A stretch of DNA of 41,616 nt from positions 2,608 to 44,223 of IMG/VR virus record IMGVR_UViG_3300030098_006072; one strand, written 5' to 3'. The notes below the pieces were generated by a model. It did not search any database. It saw nothing but the letters and a program-made list of their open reading frames with translations, and was not told the origin of the DNA. Positions 7,859-38,324 of the stretch are shown piece by piece; within the stretch, counting starts at the first letter, position 1, and each line of letters begins with the position of its first letter. The position numbers and the translations under genes were made by a program. This stretch comes from a virus.

Positions 7859-7901
7859 TTTTGACCCAAGTGTGCTAACACAGAACAAAAGGAGAATAAC
7901 T

Positions 7902-12570: not shown

Positions 12571-12571
12571 A

Positions 12572-12585
12572 TACTATTTATATTA
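12572..12585 (+). promoter_or_regulatory. Recurrent TACTATTTATATTA motif (possible phage promoter)
   Basis: TACTATTTATATTA lies immediately after the terminator and 11 bases before the ATG of the IscA-like gene. Terminator followed by motif and gene suggests a transcription start signal. If it is a -10 type element, the leader would be very short. Confidence 0.45.
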
Positions 12586-12596
12586 GAGAGGGGCAA

Positions 12597-12926
12597 ATGG
12601 TATCTTTGACAAAAAAAGCCGCTGAAAGAATTCAGAAACTATTAAAACAACAAAATATAATTGTTGAAAAAGCCGGCTTGCGCGTGTATGTCAAGGCCGG
12701 AGGATGTGCGGGATTTGAATACGGATTTGAATTGGAAGCGCAAAAAGAAGAAAATGATTACACATTCGATATCCACAATGTTCGCATCTTCTTAGACCCA
12801 AAAAGCGCCCTATATCTTGCAGGCACAGAGATAGATTATACGGAAACTTTAATGGAAAGTGGATTTAAAATTAATAATCCAAACGCATCTTCTACTTGCG
12901 GTTGCGGTACAAGCTTTAGTGTATAG
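12597..12926 (+). CDS. IscA/HesB-type Fe-S cluster carrier
   Basis: A 109-residue A-type carrier protein. The three cluster-binding cysteines are present: Cys37 in KAGGCAGFEYG, and Cys101 and Cys103 in STCGCGTSF at the C-terminus. Length and strand order match the family (IscA, SufA, ErpA, HesB). It would accept and deliver Fe-S clusters to apo-enzymes. IscA/HesB-like genes are known in cyanophages, so this is a plausible auxiliary gene. ATG 12597 is chosen after GAGAGGGG; a longer frame from 12555 would begin inside the terminator. Expressed from the motif at 12572, followed 12 bases later by the patatin gene. Confidence 0.9.
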   Translation: MVSLTKKAAERIQKLLKQQNIIVEKAGLRVYVKAGGCAGFEYGFELEAQKEENDYTFDIHNVRIFLDPKSALYLAGTEIDYTETLMESGFKINNPNASSTCGCGTSFSV

Positions 12927-12938
12927 AGGGAGGTTATT

Positions 12939-13733
12939 TTGAAAAAGATCAAAGTTGTGATGGGTGGTTCCGGTGCTCTTTATCCAATCTACTTAGGGTG
13001 CTTATGCAGACTTCAAGACGAGGGGTATGAGATTATAAGTGTAGGAGGATCATCAGGCGGCGCAATAGCCGCGACACTTTGGGCCTCGCCGACACTAGAA
13101 AACACGAAAGACAATCTAAAACAATTCATAGCCAGAACTCTTCCAAAAAATAATAAAAAAGTTATAAAATATTCCTTGCTTCATTTTATGAAAAAATGGG
13201 GATTAATAAATGGAATCCATTTGGAGAAATTGTTTTCTCATATTTTCTTTGACAAAATGAAAGAGGCAACAATGCCCCTAAAGATTTATGTTGCGAACGT
13301 AAAGAGGAACCGGCAAATAGTGTTTTCTTCAGAAACAACACCCGAAGCAGATCTTCCAAAAGTTCTGAGAGCATCCTGTTCTATTCCTTTGATTTTTGAT
13401 CCTGTGGAGATTGAGGGTAACAAATATGTTGATGGCGGTTGGTCAACCCCTCTCCCAGTTCTTGAGAAAGACGAAGATTGCATTGGAATCCGTATAAAGA
13501 AATCCAGAGAAAGCAGTTTCACGACCGGCTTGATTGATTACATCCAAAACGTTCTTTATAATAAGATCGAAATCCATGATCAGGATAAGCCAAGTCAGTC
13601 AAATATTCTAGAACTGGTCAGCGATCATGATCGAACTAATCTAAATAAAACTTCAGAGATTGAAGCAAACAACATCTTTGAAGAGGGATACCAGCAAATG
13701 GGCGAGTATCTAAAGAATAAAAAAACCTCTTGA
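12939..13733 (+). CDS. Patatin-like phospholipase
   Basis: A 264-residue serine acyl hydrolase. The glycine-rich oxyanion motif GGSGAL lies at residues 9-14, the nucleophile elbow GGSSG has Ser38, and the catalytic Asp is in YVDGGW (about 165). The start is a TTG at 12939, preceded by GAGGGAGG. Families of this type hydrolyse phospholipids or lipid esters. In a phage it could act on host membranes during lysis or virion release, or supply fatty acids; the sequence does not decide. The fold motifs are complete, so it should be active. No signal peptide or membrane segment is seen. The promoter of the next gene overlaps its stop. Confidence 0.88.
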   Translation: MKKIKVVMGGSGALYPIYLGCLCRLQDEGYEIISVGGSSGGAIAATLWASPTLENTKDNLKQFIARTLPKNNKKVIKYSLLHFMKKWGLINGIHLEKLFSHIFFDKMKEATMPLKIYVANVKRNRQIVFSSETTPEADLPKVLRASCSIPLIFDPVEIEGNKYVDGGWSTPLPVLEKDEDCIGIRIKKSRESSFTTGLIDYIQNVLYNKIEIHDQDKPSQSNILELVSDHDRTNLNKTSEIEANNIFEEGYQQMGEYLKNKKTS

Positions 13734-16195: not shown

Positions 16196-18055
16196 ATGGA
16201 ACTGGCTAGCAAAATTTTATCAGAAATCACACACCATATGAAGTATGCAAGGTATATTCCCAAGAAGAAGCGACGGGAGATTTGGATGGAAACGGTTGCT
16301 AGAAACCAAAAGATGCACACAAAGAAGTATAAAGATCCAGCTATTGCCGCCGAAATTGCCAAAGCTTATAGATTTGTTTATGACAAAAAAGTTCTTCCAT
16401 CAATGCGTTCAATGCAGTTTGCAGGAAAACCTATTGAGGTAAACCCCTCTCGTATTTTTAACTGCGCTTATCTTCCAGTTGATGACTGGAGAGCTTTTTC
16501 AGAGATTATGTTCCTTTTGCTAGGAGGGACAGGTGTTGGATATTCTGTTCAAAAGAATCACGTTGAAAAGCTTCCAGAGATTAAAAGGCCTTCGCCAAGA
16601 AAAAGAAGGTATCTGATCGGAGATTCGATTGAAGGCTGGGCTGACGCTGTAAAGCATCTGGTCAAATCCTACTTCTATGGAACAAGCACAATTGTGTTCG
16701 ATTACTCAGACATTAGAGCAAAAGGCGAGCGCCTCGTAACTTCCGGCGGTAAAGCACCCGGCCCACAGCCTTTGCACGATTGCCTCCACAACCTTCGCAA
16801 GATTCTAGATGCAAAGGAAACAGGCGACAAGCTTACATCGATTGAAGTTCACGACATGATCTGTTACATCGCAGATGCTGTACTTGCTGGTGGTATCCGC
16901 CGAGCAGCTTTAATTTCTTTATTTTCTTTTGATGATGAAGACATGATGGCCTGTAAGTTTGGGAACTGGTGGGAGGAGAATCCACAAAGAGCAAGATCAA
17001 ACAACTCAGCAGTTGTTCTTCGTCACAGAGTTGAAGAAGATGAGTTTAAAGAATTTTGGGCTAAAGTGGAAGCAGGAGGGTCCGGAGAGCCCGGTATTTA
17101 CTTTACAAACAACCAAGACTGGGGTTGTAATCCTTGTTGTGAGATCGGCTTGCGTCCTTTCCAGTTCTGCAACCTTTCAACTGTGAATGTAAGCGACGTT
17201 GTAAGCCAAGAGGACTTGGAAGAGAGAATCAAAGCCGCCGCATTTATTGGAACGCTTCAAGCTTCTTACACAGACTTCCATTATCTTCGTGATGTCTGGC
17301 AAAGAACAACAGAGAAAGATGCTCTCATTGGGGTTTCAATGACTGGGATTTGTTCTGGAAAAGTTTTAGATTTAGATTTAAAAGCAGCCGCAAAGGTTGT
17401 GAAGGAGGAGAATAAACGTGTCGCCGCTCTTATTGGAATTAACAAAGCAGCACGAGCTACATGTATTAAGCCAGAAGGAACAGCTAGTATTATTGTTGGG
17501 TCTAGCTCTGGGATTCATGCTTGGCATAACGATTTTTATATTCGCAGGGTACGTGTGGGGAAAAATGAAGCAATCTATCAATACCTCGCAGAATACCATC
17601 CAGAATTAGTTGAAGACGATTATTTCAAGCCACACCTTCAGGCAATCATTGGTGTTCCTCAGAAAGCACCAGAAGGCTCTATAATGCGTTCTGAGAGCGT
17701 TTTTGATATGCTTGAAAGGGTAAAGCGGTTTAGCACTGAATGGGTCAAAGGAGGGCACACTACAGGGCAAAATAAGCACAACGTATCTGCGACCGTTTCG
17801 GTCAAAGCAGATGAATGGGAAAAGGTTGGCCAATGGATGTGGAAGAATAGAAAACATTATAATGGCTTGGCTGTGCTTCCTTTTGATGGTGGCTCATATG
17901 TTCAGGCCCCATTTGAAGATTGTGACGAAGAAACTTATAATAAAATGATGGAGTCTTTGACGGAAGTTGATCTTTCTAAGATTGTTGAAGAGGAAGATAA
18001 CACTGATCTCAAAGGCGAAATAGCTTGTGGGGGCGGTGCCTGTGAAGTTGTTTGA
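16196..18055 (+). CDS. Class II (B12-dependent) ribonucleotide reductase
   Basis: A 619-residue monomeric-type class II reductase, making deoxyribonucleotides with adenosylcobalamin. Seen elements: FNCAYLPV (about 93-100, first redox Cys), SGGKAPGPQPLH, the thiyl-radical segment CNPCCEIGLRPFQFCNLSTVN (about 311-332; radical Cys, Glu and second redox Cys), PEGTAS near 426, and a C-terminal redox pair in CGGGACEVV (Cys611 and Cys616) that delivers electrons from thioredoxin. No intein or second subunit is needed. It is shorter than the Lactobacillus RTPR, a difference I attribute to missing N-terminal regulatory sequence. It relies on host B12. It abuts the helicase stop and overlaps the cysteine synthase start, forming a replication/precursor operon. 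Confidence 0.93.
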   Translation: MELASKILSEITHHMKYARYIPKKKRREIWMETVARNQKMHTKKYKDPAIAAEIAKAYRFVYDKKVLPSMRSMQFAGKPIEVNPSRIFNCAYLPVDDWRAFSEIMFLLLGGTGVGYSVQKNHVEKLPEIKRPSPRKRRYLIGDSIEGWADAVKHLVKSYFYGTSTIVFDYSDIRAKGERLVTSGGKAPGPQPLHDCLHNLRKILDAKETGDKLTSIEVHDMICYIADAVLAGGIRRAALISLFSFDDEDMMACKFGNWWEENPQRARSNNSAVVLRHRVEEDEFKEFWAKVEAGGSGEPGIYFTNNQDWGCNPCCEIGLRPFQFCNLSTVNVSDVVSQEDLEERIKAAAFIGTLQASYTDFHYLRDVWQRTTEKDALIGVSMTGICSGKVLDLDLKAAAKVVKEENKRVAALIGINKAARATCIKPEGTASIIVGSSSGIHAWHNDFYIRRVRVGKNEAIYQYLAEYHPELVEDDYFKPHLQAIIGVPQKAPEGSIMRSESVFDMLERVKRFSTEWVKGGHTTGQNKHNVSATVSVKADEWEKVGQWMWKNRKHYNGLAVLPFDGGSYVQAPFEDCDEETYNKMMESLTEVDLSKIVEEEDNTDLKGEIACGGGACEVV

Positions 18056-18908
18056 CATTGATAAAAAAATAATCATTGGAGACACACCACTTATTCCTCT
18101 GTCCGATAAAATATACGCCAAGCTTGAAACTTATAACCCAACAGGGTCTATAAAAGACAGGATGGCATATTTTATTTTAAAGATGGCAGAGGAACGTGGA
18201 GAGCTTAAGCCGGGTGATACAATCGTAGAGGCATCCTCTGGAAACACAGGGATCGCCTTTGCGATGCTTGGAGCAGTTAAGGGGCATAAGGTCAAGATTA
18301 TTATGCCTTGTAACATGAGCGAAGAAAGAAAGTGTATGATGAGATTATATGGTGCAGAGATCATCGAAGTTGGCCATAGTGACTTCGCCGCCGCCATAGC
18401 TCTTCGAGATGATATGTGCAGTAAAGAATCAACATATTTTTCTCCTAGACAGTTCAGCAATAAAGATAATATTAAATGTCATGAAACTACCACTGCTAAA
18501 GAGATCTTAAGAGATACTTGGCCTTATGATATATCCGCTTTTGTAGCTGGAGCAGGAACAGGTGGGACAATCATGGGGGTCCAAAGGGCATTCAAGAAGG
18601 GTTCACCAAGCACGAAGATTATATTGATGCAACCAGCAGAGTCTGCAAAGGAGCATGGAATTCAAGGTGTTAACGATGGGGAAGATTTTTTAGTTGACAA
18701 AAAGAAAATACATGGTATAATAGAGATCAAAACTGAAGAGGCAAAAGAAAGAGCTAGAAGACTGGCAACAGAGCACGGCTTGTTTGTAGGCATTTCAGCC
18801 GGAGCAAATGTTCTTGCTTCTGAAAAGTGGATTGAAGAGAATGATCCAGAGGGAATCGTTGTTACTATCCTCTGTGATCGTGGCGAAAGATATTTATCTT
18901 GTTTGTAG
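18042..18908 (+). CDS. cysK: Cysteine synthase-like PLP enzyme
   Basis: A PLP-dependent O-acetylserine sulfhydrylase family protein (about 288 residues). The cofactor lysine lies in NPTGSIKDR (Lys38 if GTG 18042 is the start). The SSGNTGIAFA phosphate-binding loop is at about 62-71, GAGTGGTIMG (about 170-179) anchors PLP, and a SAGAN motif lies near 251. The start is uncertain: GTG 18042 is chosen because G-rich sequence lies upstream, but GTG 18027 or TTG 18048 are possible; all are inside the RNR C-terminus. CysK makes cysteine from O-acetylserine and sulfide. In the phage it may supply cysteine for Fe-S (IscA-like gene at 12597) or redox needs, an inference only. An internal promoter for the next genes lies at 18694. 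Confidence 0.85.
   Translation: MKLFDIDKKIIIGDTPLIPLSDKIYAKLETYNPTGSIKDRMAYFILKMAEERGELKPGDTIVEASSGNTGIAFAMLGAVKGHKVKIIMPCNMSEERKCMMRLYGAEIIEVGHSDFAAAIALRDDMCSKESTYFSPRQFSNKDNIKCHETTTAKEILRDTWPYDISAFVAGAGTGGTIMGVQRAFKKGSPSTKIILMQPAESAKEHGIQGVNDGEDFLVDKKKIHGIIEIKTEEAKERARRLATEHGLFVGISAGANVLASEKWIEENDPEGIVVTILCDRGERYLSCL
18694..18721 (+). promoter_or_regulatory. Internal sigma70 promoter within cysK
   Basis: TTGACA (18694-18699), a 16-base spacer and TATAAT (18716-18721) inside the cysteine synthase gene. It could drive the methylase, GroES-like and ThyX genes downstream. Being coding sequence, chance occurrence is possible. Confidence 0.55.
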
Positions 18909-20202: not shown

Positions 20203-20901
20203 ATGGAAAAAAGGATTGAATTATATGGAGATCGCATTGGCGCTGTCGAATATGTGCAACATGTTGGTGATGACCTTACTGTTGTTAACTCTGCTCGCGT
20301 ATCCTTCGGAAAACACAAAGAAAAGCTCGACGAAAAAGACAAAAAATTAATAAACTATCTTATCAAGCACAAGCATACTTCTACTCTTGAACATTGCTCT
20401 GTTACTTTTAGATTTAAAGTTCCCTTGTTTATACGCTCTCAGCATCATAGACATAGAACTTGGAGTTATAACGAAATCAGCCGGCGTTACACTGATTTTA
20501 ATATAGAGTTTTATGAACCTAGGCTATTTCGAACCCAGCACAAGAGCAATAGACAGGCGAGCAATGAAGATAAGAAAATAAATCCAAAAGTTTATTCTCA
20601 GGAGCATCAAACCCGCATCCATGCTGATTGGATGGTGAAGCATCACCACAAAAGAGGAATGAAACTGTTTGATGAACTTTTAGAGGCCGGGATATGCCGA
20701 GAGCAAGCCAGAGGTATTCTTCCGCAAAACATGTATACAGAGTATTATGGCACGGTAAATCTCAATAATCTTCTCAAGTTTATTGACCTCCGCATTCACG
20801 AAGGAGCACAGTGGGAAATAGTGCAAGTCGCAAAGGCTTGTAAAGATATTGCAAGTCATTTGTTTCCAATAACGGTTGCGGCCTATGATAACAATAGATG
20901 A
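20203..20901 (+). CDS. thyX: Flavin-dependent thymidylate synthase ThyX
   Basis: A 232-residue ThyX. The signature RHRxxSxNExSxRY is exact (RHRTWSYNEISRRY, about residues 84-97). STLEHCSVTFRF (about 59-70) and a C-terminal RIHEGAQWEIVQVA (Arg/Gln for dUMP binding) are present. It converts dUMP to dTMP using FAD and methylene-THF, complementing the RNR at 16196 and the dUTPase at 26360. The central region (about 105-150) is a His/Lys-rich insertion compared with short ThyX proteins. ATG 20203 is clear; its end overlaps the next gene by 17 bases. Confidence 0.95.
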   Translation: MEKRIELYGDRIGAVEYVQHVGDDLTVVNSARVSFGKHKEKLDEKDKKLINYLIKHKHTSTLEHCSVTFRFKVPLFIRSQHHRHRTWSYNEISRRYTDFNIEFYEPRLFRTQHKSNRQASNEDKKINPKVYSQEHQTRIHADWMVKHHHKRGMKLFDELLEAGICREQARGILPQNMYTEYYGTVNLNNLLKFIDLRIHEGAQWEIVQVAKACKDIASHLFPITVAAYDNNR

Positions 20902-22700: not shown

Positions 22701-25700
22701 ATGAATAGAGCAGAACCAAAACTAAAATTTGTTGGATTACACGCACACAGTTGTGCCGGTTCTCCTTTCGATGCTATGGGATATCCTGCGGAGCATATGG
22801 ACTTCGCATATGAAAATGGAATGGATGCCCTTGCACTTACTGATCATGGAAATATGAACGGTTTCAGTTGGCAAGTAGAACACGCCAAGAAGATGAAGAA
22901 AGCAGGAAAAGACTTCAAGCCAATCTTTGGCTGTGAAGCCTACTACATCCCTTCCGTCGAGCAGTGGTGGGAAGATTACGACAAGTCCAAGCAACAAAAG
23001 AAAGAAGCAAAAGCAAAGGGCGTTGTAATGGAAGATAGTGATCGCAATCGCAAGGTTGTTCCTAATAGTCACTTTCTTTTGTTGGCAAAGAATCAAACAG
23101 GCTTGAACAATCTTTTCAAATTAGTTTCAGATTCTTATACTGGGAAAAGCTTTTTTCGTAAGCCAAGAATTGATCTGGAAGCGTTACGAAAGCATTCCGA
23201 AGGTCTTGTTGCGACTACAACCTGTATTAGTGGGCCTTTCGCAAAAGTTGTATGGCAAAATCCAGAACTCAATCATTTTGAACTTCTTAACATCATGCGT
23301 CCAATGGTCGAGCAGTTTTTGGATATTTTCGGAGAAGATTACTTTGCGGAACTTCAATGGAACAATATTCCAGAGCAACACAAACTTAATAAATGTATTA
23401 TCGAACTTGCACAAGAATATAATATAAAACTTATTTCAACAGTTGATTCGCATTATGCTCGCCCTGATCTCTGGAGAGATAGAGAACTTTATAAAAGACT
23501 GGGATGGCTTGGGATGTCTCGAAAGCCAGATTGGTTATCTGATGAGATGCCAGAGAACGTAGATGAGATTGGCTATGAGCTTTACCCAAAGAATGGAGAT
23601 CAGGTCTTCGACTCTTATTTGAAATACTCAAAAGAGTGTGGGTTTAGTTATGATCCAGAGATTATAAAAGAGAGCATTGAAAACACTCATTGGATTGCTC
23701 ACGAAGTCATTGAGGATTTTATGCCCGATGCAACAGTTCGGCTACCAGACTTTGTTGTCCCGGAAGGGAAGACTGACGATCAGGCTTTGACCGAACTTTG
23801 TTTCGAAGGCTTGAAAGAAAAAGGCTTCGACAAGAACAGGGAATACATCGACCGCCTTGAAAGAGAAATCAAAGTCATCTCTGCTCGTGGTTTCTCAAAA
23901 TACTTTCTTACAATGAAAGCAGTGTCAGATAGGGCACAAGAAGAGCAACTCTGCGGCCCCGGTCGCGGATCTGCCGCTGGTTCGTTGGTTGCGTATGTCT
24001 TGGACATCACGCAGATTGATCCGATCAAGTGGGGACTTCTGTTCTCTCGCTTCCTTCGAGAGGACGCAACAGATTATCCTGACATCGACTTTGATGTTTC
24101 CGATCCAATGACTTTGAAGAATGCGATGATTGATGAATGGGGTGACAATGTTGTTGTTCCTATTTCAAACTGGAACACACTTCAGTTGCGCTCTCTTATC
24201 AAAGACATAGCAAAGTTCTATGATATTCCTTTCAACGAAGTGAATCCTGTTACCGGCGCTATGATCAGAGAAGCAACTCCACAAGCAAAGAAAAAGCACG
24301 GTATCAAGTCAGGGGTTTACACTCCAACGTTTGAAGAAGTTATGGAGTTTAGCGAGTCTCTTCAGAAGTTTTTGACAAAATATCCTCATGTTAAGACGCA
24401 CGTTGAAGCTTTGTATGGAGAAGTCCGTTCTTGTTCTCGACATGCCGGCGGAGTTGTGATCGGGGAAGACCTAGATAAATATATGCCACTAATCAATAGT
24501 GGGGGAGTTCGTCAAACTCCGTGGTCCGAAGGCCAGAACGTTCGTCATTTGGAACCTCTTGGGTTTATTAAGTTTGATATTCTTGGTCTGGCTTCTTTGA
24601 GAATGATGGAAGAATGTATTAGAAGCATTCTAATTAAACAAGGGACTGAAGAACCTACGTTCGAAGATGTGCAAGCATTTTACAACAAACACCTCCATCC
24701 AGATGTGATTGATCTGAAAGATAGGAAAGTGTTTGATAATGTTTTTCACAAAGGAAACTGGGCAGGCATTTTTCAGTTCACAGAGAAAGGCGCACAGACA
24801 TTCTGCGTAAAAGCAAAGCCAAATAGTATTGTAGATATTTCAGCAATCACAAGTATCTTCCGCCCCGGACCACTCGGTGCGAACGTAGATCAGATGTATG
24901 TTGATGCAAAAGAGGGATTAAAGCATGTAGAATATGTGCACCCGATTCATAAAGAGATAACAAAGGAAACACATGGGTTCTTGATCTTTCAGGAACAGAT
25001 TGCTTTGTTGGCTCATAAACTAGGGAAAGATATTTCTCTTGATGAGGGAAATAAGCTTCGTAAACTCCTAACAAAGAAAGGGACAGGGAAAGGTCATGAA
25101 GAAAAAGAAAAGATCTATAAAAAGTTTATTAGAGGATGCGCCGAAAAAAATATACCAAACGGTGACGCAGAAGGTCTTTGGAGGACTTTCGAGTATTTCT
25201 CAGGATATGGTTTTAATAAGTCGCATGCTGTTTCTTACAGTATGCTTTCTTATCAATGCGCTTACCTTTCAAATTACTTTCCAGTCGAGTGGATGGCCGC
25301 CTTTCTAGATAAGGAGCCTGAAACAAGAAAGGAAAAAGCAGTTAGCATTGCAAAAGGAGCCGGCTTCAAAGTTCATCCAGTCGATATTAATTACTCTGGA
25401 AGAACTTGGGGCATTCTAAATGAAGATACTTTAGTTCAACCTTTGTCTGCGATTAAAGGATTGGGAGACAAGGCTATAGATCAGATTTTGGAGCATAGAC
25501 CTTTTAACACAATTGATGACTTTTTGTTTCACGAAGAAATCGTTTACAGCAAACTTAATAAAAAGGCTTTAGATGTTCTTTGTCGTTCCGGTGCTTTAGA
25601 CTCTTTGATAGATGATCGCTTCACAGGGGCAAAGCATTTCTGGTCATCAGTTGCGGTTGATAGGCCCAGAAAGCATGAAAAGTTTATTGAAAACATTGAG

Positions 25701-26096
25701 AAGTATGAAGAAGAGGGAGACTTCACAGAGTTTGAAAAGATTGAATATCTTGTTGGCTTGACTGGCATGTATCCCTTTTATCATGTTTTGAAAGATTCTG
25801 TAGCAGAAAAGCTTTCAGAATATTGTATTCCTGCTTTGTCCGAGTTTGATAAAGATTTGCAAGTTGCTTGGTTTGTTCCAAGGGAAAAGATTGAAAAGAA
25901 AACCAAGAATGGAAAGACATATTGGATCTTGAGATGTATAGACCCCGGTGGGATTACTTCAATAAAATGTTGGGGAGTCCGACCAGACAAAGATAAGATT
26001 CAGTTTAACAAGCCGTATATGGCAAAACTAGATTATTCAGAGGACTGGGGCTTCTCATCTAGAGCGATTGGAAAAACTTTTAAGCTTTTAGCTTGA
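22701..26096 (+). CDS. dnaE: Family C DNA polymerase, DnaE-type Pol III alpha
   Basis: A 1131-residue replicative polymerase. It has an N-terminal PHP domain (LHAHSCAGS at 13-21; LTDHGNMNGF at about 46-55), the core PGRGSAAGSLVAY (about 419-431), the catalytic PDIDFD (about 460-465), SRHAGGV near 576-582, and a C-terminal region with FRPGPLGA, GYGFNKSHA, then an HhH-like GLGDKAIDQIL segment and an OB-like end. No separate 3'-5' exonuclease domain is seen; the intact PHP metal motifs could give proofreading, as in some bacterial DnaE proteins. It is slightly shorter than E. coli DnaE (1160). Together with the helicase and SSB it is the likely phage replicase. A second polymerase of family A is encoded at 3622. 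ATG follows AGGAGCACTG. Confidence 0.95.
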   Translation: MNRAEPKLKFVGLHAHSCAGSPFDAMGYPAEHMDFAYENGMDALALTDHGNMNGFSWQVEHAKKMKKAGKDFKPIFGCEAYYIPSVEQWWEDYDKSKQQKKEAKAKGVVMEDSDRNRKVVPNSHFLLLAKNQTGLNNLFKLVSDSYTGKSFFRKPRIDLEALRKHSEGLVATTTCISGPFAKVVWQNPELNHFELLNIMRPMVEQFLDIFGEDYFAELQWNNIPEQHKLNKCIIELAQEYNIKLISTVDSHYARPDLWRDRELYKRLGWLGMSRKPDWLSDEMPENVDEIGYELYPKNGDQVFDSYLKYSKECGFSYDPEIIKESIENTHWIAHEVIEDFMPDATVRLPDFVVPEGKTDDQALTELCFEGLKEKGFDKNREYIDRLEREIKVISARGFSKYFLTMKAVSDRAQEEQLCGPGRGSAAGSLVAYVLDITQIDPIKWGLLFSRFLREDATDYPDIDFDVSDPMTLKNAMIDEWGDNVVVPISNWNTLQLRSLIKDIAKFYDIPFNEVNPVTGAMIREATPQAKKKHGIKSGVYTPTFEEVMEFSESLQKFLTKYPHVKTHVEALYGEVRSCSRHAGGVVIGEDLDKYMPLINSGGVRQTPWSEGQNVRHLEPLGFIKFDILGLASLRMMEECIRSILIKQGTEEPTFEDVQAFYNKHLHPDVIDLKDRKVFDNVFHKGNWAGIFQFTEKGAQTFCVKAKPNSIVDISAITSIFRPGPLGANVDQMYVDAKEGLKHVEYVHPIHKEITKETHGFLIFQEQIALLAHKLGKDISLDEGNKLRKLLTKKGTGKGHEEKEKIYKKFIRGCAEKNIPNGDAEGLWRTFEYFSGYGFNKSHAVSYSMLSYQCAYLSNYFPVEWMAAFLDKEPETRKEKAVSIAKGAGFKVHPVDINYSGRTWGILNEDTLVQPLSAIKGLGDKAIDQILEHRPFNTIDDFLFHEEIVYSKLNKKALDVLCRSGALDSLIDDRFTGAKHFWSSVAVDRPRKHEKFIENIEKYEEEGDFTEFEKIEYLVGLTGMYPFYHVLKDSVAEKLSEYCIPALSEFDKDLQVAWFVPREKIEKKTKNGKTYWILRCIDPGGITSIKCWGVRPDKDKIQFNKPYMAKLDYSEDWGFSSRAIGKTFKLLA

Positions 26097-26138: not shown

Positions 26139-26363
26139 ATGAGTAGTTTGAAGTATGATGCACTGGTTAAGAAATATGAAGCAGAGATTGCAGAGGCGAA
26201 AGCGATTTTGGAAGTTTATTTTACAAACGCCGCTGGCATTGGAGAACACCCGGATATTATTGAAGAAATGGACAAGCAGATTTCAAGACTTTCTTCGGCA
26301 GAGGGTAGTCTAGATTCTTTACAAAAACTAGTAACAATAGATTCAGAGGAAGAAGGTGAATGA
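26139..26363 (+). CDS. Small helical hypothetical protein
   Basis: A 74-residue acidic protein directly behind a strong promoter, ATG after AAAAGGAGAAAAG. It is a probable two-helix hairpin or coiled coil (YDALVKKYEAEIAEAKAILEVYF, then IIEEMDKQISRLSSAEGSLDSLQKLV). Small proteins of this size and composition lie before nucleotide-metabolism genes in many T4-like phages, but I cannot name the family. Overlaps the dUTPase start by 4 bases. Confidence 0.6.
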   Translation: MSSLKYDALVKKYEAEIAEAKAILEVYFTNAAGIGEHPDIIEEMDKQISRLSSAEGSLDSLQKLVTIDSEEEGE

Positions 26364-26809
26364 TGGAGTGCAAGGTTAAGAGAACTAGAGAAGATGCAAT
26401 AATCCCAAAGAAAGCGCACCTGACAGATACAGGATATGATCTTTGGGTACTAGACAAACACAAGGAGCTTGACAATGGCGTTGTAATGTATTCCACTGGT
26501 CTGCAAATTGAACCACCTTCTGGGTTTTATTTTGAAATAGTTCCACGTTCTTCGATTATTAAATCGGGACACATTCAAGCAAATAGCGTTGGGGTCGTAG
26601 ACTCAGGGTATAGAGGAGAGCTTTTCGTTCCCCTTCTTAAAGTTGATAAAGGTTCACCAGATCTAGAACTCCCAAAGAAGATTGGACAGCTAGTGTTAAG
26701 GCAAGTTTTAACATGTGAGTTTATCGAGGCAGATGAACTTCACGACTCTCAAAGGGGAGAGGGAGGTTTTGGAAGTACTGATAAAATGGACTTGAAGGTG
26801 GCATCATGA
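26360..26809 (+). CDS. dut: Trimeric dUTPase
   Basis: A 149-residue dUTPase with all five conserved motifs: motif 1 DTGYDLWV, motif 2 PRSSI (about 61-65), motif 3 VGVVDSGYRGEL with the catalytic Asp (about 77-88), motif 4 KIGQLVLRQV (about 105-114), and motif 5 RGEGGFGSTD near the C-terminus, which closes over the active site. It hydrolyses dUTP to dUMP, keeping uracil out of DNA and feeding ThyX (20203). The start could be ATG 26360 or the adjacent ATG 26363, which has better spacing from AAGG. It overlaps the next gene by 4 bases. Confidence 0.92.
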   Translation: MMECKVKRTREDAIIPKKAHLTDTGYDLWVLDKHKELDNGVVMYSTGLQIEPPSGFYFEIVPRSSIIKSGHIQANSVGVVDSGYRGELFVPLLKVDKGSPDLELPKKIGQLVLRQVLTCEFIEADELHDSQRGEGGFGSTDKMDLKVAS

Positions 26810-27801
26810 AGGCGGATATAGTTGTGGGCCTCCAAGCCGGAGATGAAGCGAAAGGAAAAGTAACTTACAATCTTTTGAAAAAGGGAAGTTACACTCACTG
26901 CATGAGGTTCAATGGATCTGGAAACGCAGGGCATACAATTTATCACAAAGGAGAGAAGTTTGTAACACATCAGATCCCGACGGGAGTTTTCTTTGGGGTC
27001 AAGTCTATTATTGGAGCAGGCTGTGTTGTTGACTTCGAGGCATTGAACGAAGAGATAAAAGAGCTTGAAAGTAATGGTTTGGAAGTTAGAGAACATTTAT
27101 TTATTTCAAAACGAGCACATGTTATTTTTCCAAAACACTTATCCATAGACAGACAAGGCTCAGGCATTGGCTCAACAAAGAAAGGCGTTGGCCCTGCCTA
27201 TTCAGAGAAGTATGCGAGAACCGGAAAGAGAGCAGAGGATGTGGCAGTCGTCTATGGTTTCCGTTCCAATCTCGTTGATGTATACGAGGAGCTTCACAAG
27301 GATGGCGTTAGAGTACTCTTAGAAGGCGCACAAGGCTTTAACTTGGACATAGACTGGGGTGACTACCCTTATGTAACTTCGTCGCCTTGTACGGTAGCTG
27401 GAGCGATTCAAAACGGCATCCCTTATACGGCCATTAGTTCTGTGTATGGTGTTGGAAAATGTTATGAGACTTATGTGGGGACAAAGAAGTTTCAGCCAGA
27501 CGAAGAAGTCTTTGAAGAAATAGCAAAGGTAGGAAACGAGTTTGGCTCGACAACAGGAAGACCAAGGCAATGTAACTGGATGGATCTTGAAGGCTTGAAG
27601 AAGGCCGCAAAGCTAAACTGTGTTACAGATTTAATAATTAATAAAATGGATGTTATGAGAGAAGTTGGAGAGTGGAAGGTTTATGAAAATGATTCTATAA
27701 AAGATTTAGGATCAGAGATGGACTTCACTCAATACTTGGCAAGCCACATGTTGCAGATAGTCCAGCATGTAACTTTTTCTGACAATCCATATGGATTTTA
27801 A
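26806..27801 (+). CDS. Adenylosuccinate synthetase family protein (PurA/PurZ type)
   Basis: A 331-residue protein, about 100 residues shorter than bacterial PurA and close in size to archaeal PurA and phage PurZ. The P-loop-like start is GLQAGDEAKGK, keeping the catalytic Asp13 that phage PurZ typically replaces with Ser. Next come GSGNAGHT (His43), a GSTKKGVGPAYSEKYARTGKR IMP-site loop (about 124-144), EGAQGFNLDIDWGDYPYVTSS (about 170-190), the Asp-binding STTGRPRQCNWMD (about 247) and the guanine-specificity NKMD (about 278). PurA joins IMP and aspartate with GTP; PurZ uses dGMP to start diaminopurine synthesis. Retained Asp13 favours PurA or an ancestral PurZ0-like form. Neighbours dUTPase and, at 29142, an IMPDH/GMPR-like enzyme suggest purine rebalancing. 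Confidence 0.9.
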   Translation: MKADIVVGLQAGDEAKGKVTYNLLKKGSYTHCMRFNGSGNAGHTIYHKGEKFVTHQIPTGVFFGVKSIIGAGCVVDFEALNEEIKELESNGLEVREHLFISKRAHVIFPKHLSIDRQGSGIGSTKKGVGPAYSEKYARTGKRAEDVAVVYGFRSNLVDVYEELHKDGVRVLLEGAQGFNLDIDWGDYPYVTSSPCTVAGAIQNGIPYTAISSVYGVGKCYETYVGTKKFQPDEEVFEEIAKVGNEFGSTTGRPRQCNWMDLEGLKKAAKLNCVTDLIINKMDVMREVGEWKVYENDSIKDLGSEMDFTQYLASHMLQIVQHVTFSDNPYGF

Positions 27802-27802
27802 T

Positions 27803-28048
27803 ATGAAAACAAAAAGAAAAAGACGTAGTAAAAAAAGGGCAGAAAAAGAAATGAAACAGAAAGTTGGGATGTTTGAAAAACTTCCCGATGCCTGTGATGC
27901 CTGTAAAAAAGATTTTGACAAAAAGAATAAAGAAATGGTAATGAGCTGGAACGTGGTTGTAAGAGAGGCACAAGGAGTCGTCAGACTGTATTGTCCCGAA
28001 TGCTGGAATGCGGCCATCAAAGCAGTACAAGAGGTTGAAAATGGATAA
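27803..28048 (+). CDS. Small zinc-ribbon-like phage protein
   Basis: An 81-residue protein; ATG 27803 is preferred to 27791, which would overlap the previous stop, though neither has a strong site. The N-terminus is very basic (KTKRKRRSKKRAEKEMKQK). Two CxxC pairs, CDACKKDF (about 32-39) and CPECW (about 63-67), would bind one zinc and form a small ribbon. The middle MVMSWNVVVREAQG resembles a family common in T4-like marine phages whose role is unknown. A nucleic-acid or RNA-polymerase contact is plausible from charge. Its end overlaps the methylase start by 8 bases. Confidence 0.65.
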   Translation: MKTKRKRRSKKRAEKEMKQKVGMFEKLPDACDACKKDFDKKNKEMVMSWNVVVREAQGVVRLYCPECWNAAIKAVQEVENG

Positions 28049-28526
28049 GAAGACACAAGAGACAATGTTCAGTAGCAAGACACCAGAATGGGAAACGCCC
28101 AGAGATTTATATGATCGGTTAAATGAATCATGGAACTTTACACTTGATCCTTGTTGCACGAAAGAAACAGCAAAGTGTGAAACATTTTTTACGAAAGATG
28201 ATGATGGCCTCTCACAAGATTGGCAAGGTCACAGAGTATTTATGAATCCACCCTATGGCCGAGGCATGCACGTTTGGCTAGAGAAAGCTTACAGGGAGGG
28301 CTTAAAAAAGGACACAACAGTTGTCTGCCTTGTCCCGTCGAGAACAGATACAAAATGGTTTCATGATTATTGTATGAAAGCACAATCAATAAGATTTATA
28401 AAAGGAAGATTAAAGTTTGGTAATGCTACGGCAGGCGCACCTTTTCCATCGATGCTTGTGATATTCAACGGAAGAGAACCAGCAACGATGTATGGAACAC
28501 CAACAATTTATAGTCATAGGAGGTAA
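28041..28526 (+). CDS. Phage-type DNA N6-adenine methyltransferase
   Basis: A 161-residue methylase of the phage Dam (N-6-adenine-methyltransferase) family. SKTPEWETPRDLYDRLN at the N-terminus (about 11-27), FTLDPCCTKETAKC (about 33-46) and the catalytic FMNPPYGRG (about 66-74) are diagnostic, followed by VCLVPSRTDTKWFHDY. ATG 28041 overlaps the Zn-ribbon stop; an upstream ATG in the same frame at 28008 has no site and would lie inside that gene. It modifies adenine, presumably protecting phage DNA. Sequence and motif order are unlike the D12 enzyme at 18917, so the phage carries two independent adenine methylases. Confidence 0.9.
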   Translation: MDKKTQETMFSSKTPEWETPRDLYDRLNESWNFTLDPCCTKETAKCETFFTKDDDGLSQDWQGHRVFMNPPYGRGMHVWLEKAYREGLKKDTTVVCLVPSRTDTKWFHDYCMKAQSIRFIKGRLKFGNATAGAPFPSMLVIFNGREPATMYGTPTIYSHRR

Positions 28527-28530
28527 CAAA

Positions 28531-29142
28531 ATGTATTGGATGGATGAAACGGAGGCAGAAGCGCAGGACAAGAAACCAGATCCGAACTTCGGCGATAACA
28601 CATCAGACTCAAATATAGAAGTTGTGAATAATCACATTTACTTTTATTCGGGGATTAAGAGCAACAGCATCTTAAAACTTAACAAAAGATTAAAAGAGTT
28701 GGAAACAAAACTTTTAACTTATGCAGACTCTTTAGAGTGGGAACCACCCGGCATTTACCTCCACATCAATAGCTATGGTGGCTCTGTCTTTGCCGGAGTC
28801 GCAGGAATGGATCAGATAAGAAAATGCAAAGTCCCGGTCTACACAGTGATTGATGGCTGTGCCGCTTCTGCGGCCACGTTCTTATCGGTTGTAGGGCAGA
28901 AAAGATATATCAATAAACATGCACACGTTCTAATTCACCAGTTGTCTTCTGGCTTCTGGGGGAAGTTTTCTGCTATCGAAGACGAAATGAAGAACTTGAA
29001 AAAGCTGATGGAAATGATCAAGGATGTATATCTGAATCATACAAAGATTGAAAAGAAACAATTAGAAAAACTATTAAAAAGAGATCTGTGGCTCAATGCT
29101 GAGGAAGCTTTGGAATACGGATTGGTGGATGAGATACTATAA
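28531..29142 (+). CDS. ClpP-like serine protease 1
   Basis: A 203-residue ClpP-fold protease. The catalytic triad is readable: Ser113 in GCAASAATF, His136 in LIHQLSSGFWG and Asp185 in RDLWLNAEEALEYG. The substrate-loop INSYGGSVFAG (about 78-88) matches ClpP. The N-terminus carries an extra acidic segment (residues 1-35, rich in Asp/Glu) not found in cellular ClpP. The start is ATG 28531 after ATAGGAGG; the longer frame from 28492 overlaps the methylase. The protein may act in host or phage protein turnover, or in virion maturation; no unfoldase gene is seen in the window. A second ClpP-like gene at 31530 may form a mixed complex. Confidence 0.92.
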   Translation: MYWMDETEAEAQDKKPDPNFGDNTSDSNIEVVNNHIYFYSGIKSNSILKLNKRLKELETKLLTYADSLEWEPPGIYLHINSYGGSVFAGVAGMDQIRKCKVPVYTVIDGCAASAATFLSVVGQKRYINKHAHVLIHQLSSGFWGKFSAIEDEMKNLKKLMEMIKDVYLNHTKIEKKQLEKLLKRDLWLNAEEALEYGLVDEIL

Positions 29143-30164
29143 TGAAAACTGGATTATGTTATGACGATGTATTGCTTGTTCCACAATACAGCGATATTAG
29201 ATCAAGAAAAGAAGTTGATATTTCAACTGAACTGGGAGAAGGATTAAAGCTAGAACTCCCGCTAATATCTTCCCCAATGGACACGGTATCCGGTGAAAAG
29301 ATGGCAAAGGCTCTGGATAAAGCAGGGACGATGTCAATCATTCACAGGTACAACACGATCGAGGATCAAGTTGGATTAGTTTGCTCTGTGACAAAAGATG
29401 GAGGCAGAGTAGGCGCTGCTGTCGGGATTACAGGAGACTTCCTCGAAAGAGCGCAAGCATTAGTAAAGTATGGAGTATCTTTTCTTTGCGTTGATGTCGC
29501 ACATGGACACCACATTATGATGAAGGAAGCATTAGAAACTTTGAAGAAAAATGTTGACGTTCACATCATGGCCGGGAATGTAGCAACAAAGCAAGGGTAT
29601 AAAGATCTTTCGAACTGGGGAGCAGATTCAGTTCGCTGTAATATCGGAGGAGGATCAGCTTGTACCACACGAGTCCAAACAGGTCACGGAATGCCGGGAC
29701 TGGCTACAATATTTGAGTGTTCCAAGATAGAGGATTTCTGGATGAGAGGCGTACGCAGAGCCAAGATAATCGCAGACGGCGGTATAAAAAGTTCGGGAGA
29801 TATTGTAAAAGCCCTTGCCGCTGGAGCAGATATGGTTATGGTTGGTTCTCTATTAGCCGGAACAAAGGAAACCCCCGGAGCCATAGTTGAAGCAAACATG
29901 GGACAGTTCAAGGAATACAGGGGCATGGCTAGTAAGAAAGCCCAGTTTGAATGGAGAGGCAAGACAGGATCTTATGAGGGCGTTTCAACAATGGTCCCCT
30001 ACAAAGGACCAGTAAAAAATGTCTTGGAGGATTTGGAAAATGGAATTAGAAGCGGTCTTTCCTACTCCGGTTGCAGAACAATAAAAGAACTGCAAGAAAG
30101 TGCTGTATGGATTAAGCAGACATCAAATGGGTTGTCAGAAAGTAGGCCACATATATTAAAATGA
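29142..30164 (+). CDS. CBS-less IMP dehydrogenase / GMP reductase family enzyme
   Basis: A 340-residue TIM-barrel enzyme. The N-terminus [13 protein letters not shown] is family-typical. The nucleotide loop [15 protein letters not shown] (about 169-183) contains the active Cys174, [22 protein letters not shown] (about 208-229) binds phosphate, and YRGMAS (about 264) follows. There is no CBS domain, so it lacks the regulatory part of cellular IMPDH. In the flap after YRGMAS I see no Arg-Tyr dyad of IMPDH, which favours GMP reductase (GMP to IMP), but the C-terminal ESRPHI is IMPDH-like, so the reaction is undecided. With the PurA-like gene at 26806 it would channel purines between G and A. ATG overlaps the ClpP stop by one base. 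Confidence 0.88.
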
Positions 30165-32222: not shown

Positions 32223-33392
32223 ATGAAGATGAAACAATCCGATTTTTTTGATTTGATTCGTGAGGAGTTATCAGGATTTCTGGGCTTGCAAGAACAAGAA
32301 GCGGTAAAGACAGAAGAGGGAGACAAGATACTACTTTCTCTTCCGAAGTTTGTTCCTACCGAGGCATGGGGTACGCCCAACGACCAAACCAGAAAAGAGA
32401 TTGAAACTTACATTAGAAACATCGGTGGCAAAGGTCTTGGTGGTAAGATAAAGTTTTTGGAGGATCTTCAAAAAGGAGTAGTTGACGGAGTGAAGGCGTC
32501 TAGAATCCGTTCTCCCCGTCGTATCATCTCTACATTGATTGTACTTGAAAGCCTTTCGGCTGTCCTAAAATCATTCAGCGAATCAGCCGCTGGCTTTGTA
32601 TTTGAGGGCTTCTTGGCCGCTTTACTAGGCGGATACCAACAGGCAGAAAGAATAGAAGGCAATCTTCCGATTCAGGATGTAATGGCGTTCTCTACAGATC
32701 AGTTGGACTTTACCAAGGGAACTCCAATGAGTTTGAAACTCTTAAGCCCCAAGACACATATCAAGGGGAGTTATACAAACTTGGTAGATGCTATTAACAC
32801 ATTTCCAGAAATGGTTTACGTCGTGGCTACAAAAAAAGGGGATGATGTTTTGTCGATAGGCCAGTTTGTAATTAGCAGGGAAAACTTAGTTGACATTGTT
32901 GCACAAAGAAATGCAGGACTATTAAAACTGCCAGCAAAAATAACAAGAAAAAATCCAGCTACATATTTGAAAAGCTTGCCATGGCCAGAACAGTATGTTG
33001 CTTTGACAAACACGGCAGGGTACACAAAGGCTCCCAAGTCTCTAGGCGGAGAGGAAAAAGAAGAACTGAATGAAGCTAAGGGTCCACAATGGCATTTAAC
33101 ACCAGCAGATATTATGTCTAGAATGTCTGATTCTCTCGATTACAGGGAGCTAGGCACCTTGAGACTTTCACAGGAGGATCTTAAGAAGACAGCTAGATTG
33201 TATATGGAGAATCTTCGAGGAACAATCATGGATATGTTTGAGGGTGTTAAGGATTTGTCAGATAATATTAATACTTATTTTGCTTCTGAAAAAAGAGGAA
33301 CGGCTATTAAAAGCGGAGAAGAGGCAATCAAGGATGCTCAAAAAGTACAGGACGCTACGAGAGAGCAATTAGAACAAGAACAGGAGGGCTAA
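32223..33392 (+). CDS. Hypothetical protein with possible PD-(D/E)XK-type core
   Basis: A 389-residue protein, family not recognised. Around residues 120-190 the order FEGFLAALLGG, GNLPIQDVMAF, GTPMSLKLLS and THIKGSYTNLVDAI resembles the acidic helix, Asp strand and SxK strand of PD-(D/E)XK nucleases, but this is pattern reading only. The N-terminus is a short helical region (DFFDLIREELSGFLGLQ) similar to leaders of phage virion proteins. The C-terminal 80 residues are a charged coiled coil (LSQEDLKKTARLYMENLRG to the end). It could be a virion-packaged enzyme or structural protein. It sits between the second ClpP and GroEL, and its stop overlaps the GroEL start by 1 base. Confidence 0.5.
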   Translation: MKMKQSDFFDLIREELSGFLGLQEQEAVKTEEGDKILLSLPKFVPTEAWGTPNDQTRKEIETYIRNIGGKGLGGKIKFLEDLQKGVVDGVKASRIRSPRRIISTLIVLESLSAVLKSFSESAAGFVFEGFLAALLGGYQQAERIEGNLPIQDVMAFSTDQLDFTKGTPMSLKLLSPKTHIKGSYTNLVDAINTFPEMVYVVATKKGDDVLSIGQFVISRENLVDIVAQRNAGLLKLPAKITRKNPATYLKSLPWPEQYVALTNTAGYTKAPKSLGGEEKEELNEAKGPQWHLTPADIMSRMSDSLDYRELGTLRLSQEDLKKTARLYMENLRGTIMDMFEGVKDLSDNINTYFASEKRGTAIKSGEEAIKDAQKVQDATREQLEQEQEG

Positions 33393-34960
33393 TGCCATTT
33401 CAATTTGATTCAAAGAAATCACTTCAACAGAAAATAGAATCCGGTGTGGATGTATTGGCAGATTACGTTGCATCGACACTCGGCCCAAGGGGAAGGACAG
33501 TCATCCTTCAAGAAAAAGACAAGCGCCCATTCATGACCAAGGATGGCGTGACCGTAGCCAAGTATATAAACCTAGAAGATTCATTTGAAAACCTTGGCGC
33601 ACAAATTATAAAACAAGCATCTGAAAGAACTGCCGCCGATGCGGGCGACGGGACAACAACCACAACTGTATTGGCTAGGGCGATTTACAAAAACGCTCAA
33701 AAGTATATTCAGGCAGGGATCTCTCCTGTAGAATTAAAAAGAGGGATGGACAAGGCTTGTGAAAAGATTGTGGCGAACCTAAAAGAGAAATCTATTCCGA
33801 TCACTTCCATAGAGGAAATTGAAAGAGTCGCAACCATTTCTGCAAATGGTGACAAGCATATTGGAAAACTAATCTCTGAAGCAGTAGAGCAAGCAGGAAG
33901 AGATGGAGCGATCACAATAGAGGAAGGAAACAGCTTAGAGACTTCTTTAGATGTGATAGAAGGTTTCCAAATCGATTCTGGTTATTGTGCCTCGGCTTTC
34001 ATAACAGATGAGCGTAGAGGGGCTGTGAAGCACGATAACGCATTTGTTTTTGTAACAGATTATAAACTAGAAAACGTAGAAGAACTTCTTCCTCTTTTGG
34101 AAACTGTAGCAAGAGATGGAAGGCCTTTGGTGATCGTCGCAGAAGCCATCGAGGGGCAGGCTTTAGCCGCTTTGATTATGAATTCGGTTAGAGGTTCAAT
34201 GAAGATTCTAGCAGTCAAAGCCCCACGCTACGGACAAGAGCGACGAAAGATTATGCAAGATTTAGCTATCTCAACCGGAGCTTCTTTCTTTACTAGAGAG
34301 GCTGGAGTTTCTTTGCGAGATGTAAAGTTGGAGCATTTAGGAATGGTTAAGTCCGTTGATTGTTTGAAAAATGTTACAACGTTTATGGGAGGCAAAGGAG
34401 ATTCTGACGAGATTGATAAACGAATTGATTCTTTGAATGAGGAAATAAAACAAGAAGACGACATTCATGAATGCGAAAGAATCCAAGAAAGAATCACTCG
34501 ATTAGCTTCAGGTGTCTCAATCATCCGTGTAGGCGGGGTTACAGAAGTTGAAATGATTGAAAAGAAGCATAGAATAGAGGATGCTTTGGAAGCAGTTAGA
34601 TCCGCTCAGGCTGAAGGAATCACAGCCGGAGGAGGGATGGCTCTGATCAAGGCATCAAAGAACGTGAAGATTGACGCAGACAACGAAGAGCAGAAAATTG
34701 GTTTACAAATCATTTTACAATCTGCTTCTGCTCCGTTCAAACAAATCGCAGAAAACTGTGGGCTTTCGCCAGATGTTTGTTATGAAAAGGCAAAGAAGAC
34801 AAAGGACGATTACGGGTTTCATTTTATCAATGAGAGGGTTTCAAATTTTGTTGAAGACGGTATTGTAGATCCTGTTAAAGTCGCTCGTTGTGCGCTACAG
34901 AACGCCGTATCCGCAGGCGGAACTTTAATTACATCAAACTATGCAGTTGTTGAAAACTGA
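33392..34960 (+). CDS. groEL: Chaperonin GroEL
   Basis: A 522-residue GroEL. Family elements are clear: TLGPRGRTVIL (about 29-39), MTKDGVTVAK (about 49-58), the ATP-binding AGDGTTTTTVLA (about 86-97), the apical VIEGFQIDSGYCASAF (about 189-204) and the hydrophobic apical EEGNSLETSL region, then GITAGGGMAL near 410-419 in the second equatorial half. It is about 26 residues shorter than E. coli GroEL and lacks the flexible GGM-repeat tail. The apical domain is divergent. It would assist folding of phage proteins, likely with the GroES-like protein at 19912. GroEL genes are known in several large phages. Start ATG overlaps the previous stop; an ACTATTTAG motif follows the gene. Confidence 0.95.
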   Translation: MPFQFDSKKSLQQKIESGVDVLADYVASTLGPRGRTVILQEKDKRPFMTKDGVTVAKYINLEDSFENLGAQIIKQASERTAADAGDGTTTTTVLARAIYKNAQKYIQAGISPVELKRGMDKACEKIVANLKEKSIPITSIEEIERVATISANGDKHIGKLISEAVEQAGRDGAITIEEGNSLETSLDVIEGFQIDSGYCASAFITDERRGAVKHDNAFVFVTDYKLENVEELLPLLETVARDGRPLVIVAEAIEGQALAALIMNSVRGSMKILAVKAPRYGQERRKIMQDLAISTGASFFTREAGVSLRDVKLEHLGMVKSVDCLKNVTTFMGGKGDSDEIDKRIDSLNEEIKQEDDIHECERIQERITRLASGVSIIRVGGVTEVEMIEKKHRIEDALEAVRSAQAEGITAGGGMALIKASKNVKIDADNEEQKIGLQIILQSASAPFKQIAENCGLSPDVCYEKAKKTKDDYGFHFINERVSNFVEDGIVDPVKVARCALQNAVSAGGTLITSNYAVVEN

Positions 34961-37269: not shown

Positions 37270-37410
37270 ATGATTTGGAAAATACCAGTACTTTGTTTAG
37301 CTTTGTATTTGGCGGTGAATATAGTAGCGGCTACTTATTTGTTTTTCAAAGAAAAGAATGAAATGGAGATGATCGTTAGCGCAATTGAAAACGCAGACAA
37401 GGAGGGGTAA
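37270..37410 (+). CDS. Small single-pass membrane protein
   Basis: A 46-residue peptide with ATG 37270 preceded by GGAGGGTGAG. One membrane helix (VLCLALYLAVNIVAATYLFF, about residues 7-26) is followed by a charged cytoplasmic tail (KEKNEMEMIVSAIENADKEG). It has no signal motif. Tiny membrane proteins are frequent in phages but no role is assigned. Overlaps the UvsE start by one base. Confidence 0.5.
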   Translation: MIWKIPVLCLALYLAVNIVAATYLFFKEKNEMEMIVSAIENADKEG

Positions 37411-38324
37411 TGAACTTGGGCTATGCTTGTATCAACATGGGTTTCTCAAACCGATCTAAAAAAGATCGGATCACAACGAACAGAACTATGATCAAAAAGA
37501 CATTTGATCAGAAGGGGATCGACTACGCATCTGAACTAGCATTACAAAACTGCAAAGACCTTTTGCCTATTCTACAGTGGAACGAAGAGAACAACATTCG
37601 TTTCTTTCGCTTGTCCTCGGAGTTCTTTCCGTGGGCTTCTCATTATGATTTGTTTGACATGCCCGACATTGACGGCATAGAAAAAGCTTTGGCTGACGCA
37701 GGGGACTTTGCAAAACAGTACGGTCATCGCTTGACTAGTCACCCCGGCCCGTTCAACAAGCTAGCCAGTCCCAAAGAACAAGTGGTTCTCAATACCATCA
37801 CAGACTTGGAGATACACGGACAGTTGTTTGATCTTATGGGCCTTAGTCGCACACCGTACAACAAGCTTAACATCCATGTTGGCGCACACTACGGCGACAA
37901 AGCTATGGCTACATCAAACTTCTGCAAGAACTTCCATCGTCTTTCAGACGCTGTAAAGTCCCGTCTTACCGTAGAGAACGACGACAAAGCAAGTTTGTAT
38001 TCAGTCAAAGAACTATACGAGATGATTTACAAAGAGATTGGTATTCCAATTGTTTTCGATTATCATCATCACAAGTTCTGCACTGGCGGTCAAACAGAAC
38101 AAGAAGCTTTGGCTCTTGCCGTGTCTACTTGGGGCGACATCAAGCCCGTCGTTCATTATTCAGAAAGCAAAGCAGAAGAGCAAAACAATCCAAAGATCAG
38201 GCCACAGGCTCATTCAGATTATATACAAAAAAAGATCTTGACTTATGATCTCGACGTTGATATAATGGTAGAAGCAAAAGCTAAAGAGCTTTCCATCTTG
38301 CAATACAAAAAGCTTTGGTGCTAG
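37410..38324 (+). CDS. uvsE: UV damage endonuclease (UvsE/UVDE family)
   Basis: A 304-residue TIM-barrel UV-dimer endonuclease. The family opening NLGYACINMGF is followed by NNIRFFRLSSEFFPWASHY (about 60-78) and GHRLTSHPGPFNKLASP, then LNIHVGAHYGDK (about 151-162), RLTVENDDK (about 186-194), IPIVFDYHHHKF (about 210-221) and VVHYSESK (about 249). His and Glu ligands of the trinuclear metal site are in these positions. It nicks DNA 5' of UV dimers, starting an alternative excision repair. This is a direct repair enzyme of benefit to a virus exposed to sunlight. An internal promoter for the next genes lies at 38238. Confidence 0.93.
   Translation: MNLGYACINMGFSNRSKKDRITTNRTMIKKTFDQKGIDYASELALQNCKDLLPILQWNEENNIRFFRLSSEFFPWASHYDLFDMPDIDGIEKALADAGDFAKQYGHRLTSHPGPFNKLASPKEQVVLNTITDLEIHGQLFDLMGLSRTPYNKLNIHVGAHYGDKAMATSNFCKNFHRLSDAVKSRLTVENDDKASLYSVKELYEMIYKEIGIPIVFDYHHHKFCTGGQTEQEALALAVSTWGDIKPVVHYSESKAEEQNNPKIRPQAHSDYIQKKILTYDLDVDIMVEAKAKELSILQYKKLWC
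38238..38266 (+). promoter_or_regulatory. Internal sigma70-like promoter in the uvsE end
   Basis: TTGACT (38238-38243), a 17-base spacer and TATAAT (38261-38266) inside the uvsE gene. It may drive the FmdB-type and GDLV genes downstream. Confidence 0.5.

Follow-up and report, generated by a model that had tools for sequence, protein, structure and literature searches.

The closest described relatives of the two genes considered here are the adenylosuccinate synthetases (PurA), the phage enzymes PurZ and PurZ0 that share their fold, and the inosine monophosphate (IMP) dehydrogenases (IMPDH) and guanosine monophosphate (GMP) reductases (GMPR). At residue 13, 99% of PurA proteins have Asp and all phage-encoded PurZ and PurZ0 proteins (100%) have Ser (Poubanne et al., 2026, PMC12884076), and GMP reductases lack the Arg-Tyr dyad, have a truncated flap and require the Cys, Thr and Glu of the active site (Min et al., 2008, PMC2525682). 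The window analysed here is a stretch of 41,616 nucleotides from a linear viral contig of 44,223 bases (IMG/VR record IMGVR_UViG_3300030098_006072), itself a fragment, of which it covers bases 2608-44223; it carries one gene of each family:

26806..27801, plus strand: short PurA-family protein of 331 residues (open reading frame; Pfam Adenylsucc_synt, E 3.5e-84)
29142..30164, plus strand: CBS-less IMPDH/GMPR-family protein of 340 residues (open reading frame; Pfam IMPDH, E 1.5e-103)

Matches of this strength to the two Pfam families exclude chance, and both genes are real, as the initial annotation had read them. Our best explanation of the whole, held with moderate confidence, is that a short phage PurA and a GMP reductase together turn guanine nucleotides into adenine nucleotides. 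The component genes are known phage genes; what is new is a compact PurA clade with its own residue signature, plus a recurrent GMPR-like neighbour, in an uncultured marine phage lineage. Literature searches for such a pairing of purA or GMP reductase in phages, most subscription papers lying outside them, brought up no relevant report.

The PurA-family protein was aligned with its relatives in a set of 75 distinct phage members, E. coli PurA and four references from huge phages or from phages with 2-aminoadenine DNA (Z-DNA). Fourteen positions are unchanged in all 75 phage members (E. coli numbering): Asp13, Lys16, Asn38, His41, Thr129, Arg143, Gln224, Val273, Thr300, Thr301, Arg303, Arg305, Lys331 and Asp333. 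These include the catalytic Asp13 and His41, as well as the KxD (Lys331, Asp333) that recognizes the guanine of guanosine triphosphate (GTP). Arg303 contacts the 2'-OH of IMP and the aspartate (PMC8342488). In the window protein the corresponding residues are Asp13, His43 (His41), Arg252 (Arg303), Arg254 (Arg305) and N279-K280-M-D282 (KxD); the GDE containing Asp13 and the NKMD that the initial annotation had pointed out are both present, and Asp13 and KxD extend to the entire family. The family also departs in a manner of its own at the positions of E. coli Gly276, Gly308, Gly251, Asp21, Ile133 and Thr330. As a separate observation, a sub-lineage of the phage PurA differs in the residue directly after the catalytic Asp13, Cys replacing Glu14 in 20 of the 75 and Thr or Ser in seven, in L007, L009, L016 and other loci that do not include the window.

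In build, the phage proteins are without E. coli residues 153-195 and are also missing a large share of the C-terminal part. In comparison with bacterial PurA (E. coli; H. pylori, 9f17/6zxq; B. anthracis, 4m9d) they share the fold, Asp13/His41, Arg303/Arg305, the TTGR loop and KxD, whereas the window protein has 331 rather than about 430 residues, falls in a separate clade and is 37% identical to the E. coli enzyme. The deletion of 153-195 is common to the phage family, archaeal short PurA and phiVC8 PurZ. In length, too, the window protein resembles the archaeal enzymes (Pyrococcus horikoshii, 2d7u/5k7x), but the archaeal match has the lower sequence score (143 against about 200 bits), and the window protein lies on the opposite side of a supported branch. 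In a maximum-likelihood tree with a midpoint root, in which P. horikoshii and S-2L were represented only by HMMER-printed aligned stretches, the phage family forms a single phage-only clade (100/100) on the side of the long bacterial-type PurA, beyond P. horikoshii (branch support 96/92). The archaeal or PurZ-like size proposed at the outset thus holds for the anatomy, while sequence and tree side with long bacterial PurA. An AlphaFold2 model of the protein (predicted local distance difference test, pLDDT, 90) has H. pylori and B. anthracis PurA as its top PDB matches, and PurZ0 and PurZ rank last among the true structural matches.

Some results weigh against an ordinary PurA. All 75 phage members carry Tyr for Arg272 and Gln for Arg306 (Tyr223 and Gln255 in the window protein), where the comparison set has Arg at 272 in 20 of 21 PurA (Lys once) and 4 of 4 PurZ, and Arg at 306 in 21 of 21 PurA and 4 of 4 PurZ; because Tyr and Gln stand here in place of a near-universal Arg, an altered function is possible. 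The window protein also scores 274 bits against the cut-off of 402 of the NCBIfam PurA model PRK01117.1, and 181 against 368 with the archaeal PurA model. Since the equivalog cut-off is missed, we name these proteins a PurA-family, separate short lineage as judged from sequence, and from conservation and tree position we infer a conserved, separate sub-lineage. With all of this taken together, the window protein very probably has adenylosuccinate synthetase activity.

The second protein keeps Cys174, Thr176 and Glu279, has a shortened flap with no Arg-Tyr dyad, and has no CBS domains; the lack of CBS domains and of the dyad had been noted from the letters alone. None of the 97 distinct aligned members departs from the catalytic Cys, Thr and Glu, and all of them lack the flap segment equivalent to E. 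coli GuaB 394-403, Arg401-Tyr402 included, at the exact site of the deletion in E. coli GuaC. Two more positions are Gly and Asn in 12 of 12 Arg-Tyr IMPDHs versus Ala and Tyr in 20 of 20 members of the phage family; the first of these is Ser or Ala in GuaC. The sampled Arg-Tyr IMPDHs group in the tree as one clade (99/95) from which the phage family is excluded, and the phage family is a clade of its own (94/97). The score against the IMPDH model TIGR01302 is 281 bits, below the cut-off of 481.5. The active site thus appears GMP-reductase-like rather than IMPDH-like, as the initial annotation had supposed, and GMP reductase on an IMPDH-like core is probably the activity of this enzyme. This suggests that flapless phage proteins labelled 'IMP dehydrogenase' are probably misnamed.

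Comparison with described enzymes points to a family apart. GuaC of E. coli and the GMP reductases of phages Cr30, XacN1 and G likewise have no CBS domains, no Arg-Tyr, a short flap and Cys-Thr-Glu, but differ from the window family in its IMPDH-like core, its Ser in place of Arg286 and its position outside the GuaC clade. Among plasmid-encoded proteins the best matches come from haloarchaea and carry the annotation GMP reductase (up to 47% identity). These proteins (Halorussus, Haloferax), a Legionella counterpart that is likewise plasmid-encoded and annotated GMP reductase, and PDB 3r2g are all CBS-less, without Arg-Tyr and with an RGMA motif. The haloarchaeal ones, known here by annotation, branch nearer IMPDH. 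A flapless GMAS..AQ motif is common to the window family, the Legionella protein and 3r2g, the last of which is titled IMPDH.

From the presence of the two genes, their residues, their tree positions and their recurrent neighbourhood, all of which are observed, we infer two activities, a direction of flux and a benefit that would work as follows. The phage GMP-reductase-like enzyme would convert GMP and reduced nicotinamide adenine dinucleotide phosphate (NADPH) to IMP and ammonia; the phage short PurA would then join IMP and aspartate, with GTP, into adenylosuccinate; and host PurB would release adenosine monophosphate (AMP), a step assigned to the host because 15 contigs gave no match to a PurB-family lyase (Lyase_1). 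Guanine nucleotides, coming for instance from the breakdown of host RNA, would in this way become adenine nucleotides to be phosphorylated by the host, and through its ribonucleotide reductase, ThyX and dUTPase the phage would channel the product into DNA. For this joint passage from GMP through IMP to AMP the chances appear about even. Should the second enzyme prove to be a GMP reductase, the means to reverse the flux and draw adenine nucleotides from host guanine nucleotides would be widespread among uncultured marine phages. The benefit to an AT-rich genome that had been suggested is weakly supported and was set aside: the window has a guanine plus cytosine (GC) content of 39% and the relatives about 44%, and GC does not differ between loci with both genes (0.441) and those with the GMPR-like gene only (0.447).

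The two genes stand in a region rich in nucleotide and DNA metabolism, on the plus strand that holds nearly all large genes of the window. DnaB helicase and a UvsX-like recombinase are also encoded, along with the following:

16196..18055, plus strand: ribonucleotide reductase whose insertion domain is of the B12-dependent (class II) type (PF02867 and PF21995), a source of dNTPs
20203..20901, plus strand: ThyX thymidylate synthase (PF02511, E 1e-47)
22701..26096, plus strand: DnaE-type DNA polymerase III alpha, which in many relatives keeps its place next to purA on the upstream side
26360..26809, plus strand: dUTPase-like gene (Pfam dUTPase, E 3e-16), sharing its last 4 bases with the beginning of purA
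27791..28048, plus strand: 85-residue protein without a Pfam match; many relatives have a homologue of it ahead of the GMPR-like gene
28008..28526, plus strand: Dam-like DNA N6-adenine methyltransferase, lying after purA and before the GMPR-like gene (PF05869, E 7.4e-30)
28492..29142, plus strand: ClpP-like protease, classed with the head maturation proteases of phages and likewise lying between purA and the GMPR-like gene (PF00574, E 7.2e-36; phrog_94)

From the end of purA to the start of the GMPR-like gene is 1.34 kilobases (kb), and from start to start 2.3 kb, not the three kb given in the initial annotation. At the GMPR-like gene there are overlaps of 1 and 4 bases with the flanking genes, and with small overlaps of this kind at both genes, purA and the GMPR-like gene look like parts of one long transcribed block.

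Isolated phages give zero DNA matches to window positions 20001-41616, and their best protein matches are at about 41%. In IMG/VR, 318 stretches match the PurA-family protein (best 61%) and 117 the GMPR-like protein (best 66%). The relatives share a common block of DNA polymerase III, purA, dut/dam, the 85-residue protein, the GMPR-like gene, a sigma region 4 protein, ClpP and GroEL. Two database entries outside the viral set touch on the distribution of these genes. A 7 kb contig of a Pelagibacteraceae single-cell genome (CACHXE010000024.1, locus L182) has a 56% identical GMPR-like gene adjoining a PP-loop (TilS-type) protein and small open reading frames; it may be DNA of a phage that had infected a SAR11 cell, and as such is a host-range lead. 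A contig binned as a Chitinophagaceae metagenome-assembled genome (JAFMJI010000034.1, L183) shows the same gene block and is probably mis-binned phage DNA.

How far the recurrence of the two genes speaks for a joint pathway is a matter of weighing. One plausible explanation is that the two enzymes are independent accessory genes in a nucleotide-metabolism hotspot beside the DNA polymerase, each tuning a purine pool with no pathway in common, and we give this a somewhat less than even chance. It draws on the facts that either gene is often found alone and that spacing and intervening genes vary: 24 of 29 contigs with the GMPR-like gene have no PurA match, and 12 of 44 with PurA, some of them longer than 130 kb, have no IMPDH-family match, counts that weigh against the joint pathway and that, contigs being fragments, are upper limits for true absence. 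Because each gene so often occurs alone, the "pair" is a loose one, and their frequent separation argues that each is useful alone. Standing against independence are the conserved block from polymerase to GroEL, the fragmentary state of many contigs, which makes absences uncertain, and the order of the genes: in the 56 fetched loci with both, some of which are near-copies of one another, purA comes first on the same strand in 55, at a spacing of 703 to 5,772 bases.

Apart from the pairing, the second enzyme could be an IMP dehydrogenase that uses another water-activating group, such as Arg272 of a W-R-G motif or a Thr-Glu relay, and that boosts guanine instead of reversing the flux. Several observations weigh against the reductase and in favour of such a dehydrogenase. 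The core of the protein is IMPDH-like in sequence and fold and scores nearer IMPDH than GuaC; W271, R272 and G273 in the short flap are conserved (97/97, 92/97 and 96/97), and this flap Arg could be a replacement hydrolysis base; a Thr-Glu pathway has been proposed to work without Arg (Min et al., 2008, PMC2525682). The phage family lies outside the GuaC group, itself a separate clade (95/96), in a tree built without GuaB1-type GMP reductase; the NCBIfam reference model for the GuaB1 type reached its cut-off in none of 27 genomes. The conserved Arg or Lys of GuaC at Arg286 is Ser in most phage members, and the GMP reductase model PRK05458 scores 223 bits against a cut-off of 344. A fold search with the IMPDH-like AlphaFold2 model (pLDDT 87.5) returned IMPDH catalytic domains only among its top 50 matches, a result on a predicted structure that leaves reductase and dehydrogenase undecided. 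The dehydrogenase is nonetheless unlikely, given the absence of Arg-Tyr and the GuaC-like 10-residue flap deletion throughout the family, the two further altered IMPDH-invariant positions, and a place outside the Arg-Tyr IMPDH clade; T. foetus IMPDH without Arg418 hydrolyses 1000-fold slower (PMC2525682).

A more speculative proposal, and an improbable one, is that the phage clade stands beside PurA and PurZ as a third branch of the PurA superfamily with a function of its own. In it Arg272Tyr and Arg306Gln would alter substrate or regulation (through use of deoxy-IMP, say, or a lost feedback control), its purine substrate being made by the flapless IMPDH-like enzyme.

It is clear that the window family differs from the enzymes of the Z-DNA phages. 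PurZ (phiVC8, S-2L) and PurZ0 (Ghobes, Wayne, 7vf6) are alike with it in a short PurA fold and in being phage-encoded; in the alignment, however, the Ghobes, Wayne and phiVC8 references have Ser13, Lys303 and no KxD, and these phages have Z-accessory genes, none of which is true here. PurZ and PurZ0 group together in the tree (100/98), apart from the phage PurA clade, and the PurZ model NF038379 scores the window protein at 140 bits against a cut-off of 300. Neither DatZ (phiVC8 control positive), DUF5664 (Wayne control positive) nor MazG (12 of 14 control genomes positive) had a match in the 44,223-base contig or the long relatives searched, absences that hold for those contigs, which may be fragments, rather than for whole genomes; the initial annotation had likewise seen no DatZ or MazZ. 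The Wayne DNA polymerase as a tblastn query found nothing in the window or the fetched loci. PurZ was rejected as an identity on Asp13, Arg303 and KxD in all 75 members, on tree position and on the missing accessory genes. The initial annotation had left PurA and PurZ0 side by side, and here the first part stands; PurZ0 fails because it too carries Ser13, where the window family has Asp13, and the tree separates the two with full support, the accessory genes again being missing. The dUTPase homologue adjoining purA shares about 30% identity with the Dut proteins of Ghobes and Wayne; sequence does not separate Dut from DutZ, the Dut that hydrolyses dATP and dGTP, and having a dUTPase next door is no evidence for DutZ. 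The Z-DNA reading, with a PurZ0-like intermediate, is thus largely refuted and scarcely credible in the face of these residues, tree positions and missing genes, for all that the PurZ-like length with its common 153-195 deletion, the dUTPase beside purA (as DutZ in PurZ0 phages) and a short family-A polymerase lean towards it.

PurZ evolved from a PurA-like enzyme, and a large phage-borne PurA clade with an ancestral active site and a compact, PurZ-like build is therefore a useful outgroup for the recruitment of this fold by phages.

Other features of the window are of separate interest. Two different ClpP-like proteases in one phage (28492-29142 and 31488-32210) are accompanied by GroEL (33392-34960). 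Besides the DnaE polymerase there is a very short family-A DNA polymerase-like protein (388 residues, 3622-4788), and family-A polymerase-like open reading frames of about 400 residues occur in 10 of 14 relatives searched. An aldehyde dehydrogenase (8632-9990) and an adjoining saccharopine-dehydrogenase-like protein (10232-11323) recall lysine or aminoadipate metabolism and are unusual in a phage. A transfer RNA of unknown type with the four-base anticodon 'aaag' (7788-7859, ARAGORN) could be frameshift-suppressor-like or a false call. The window also encodes an Fe-S A-type carrier (12555-12926), a patatin-like phospholipase (12939-13733), a cysteine-synthase-like pyridoxal phosphate enzyme (18027-18908) and a UvdE endonuclease (37410-38324).

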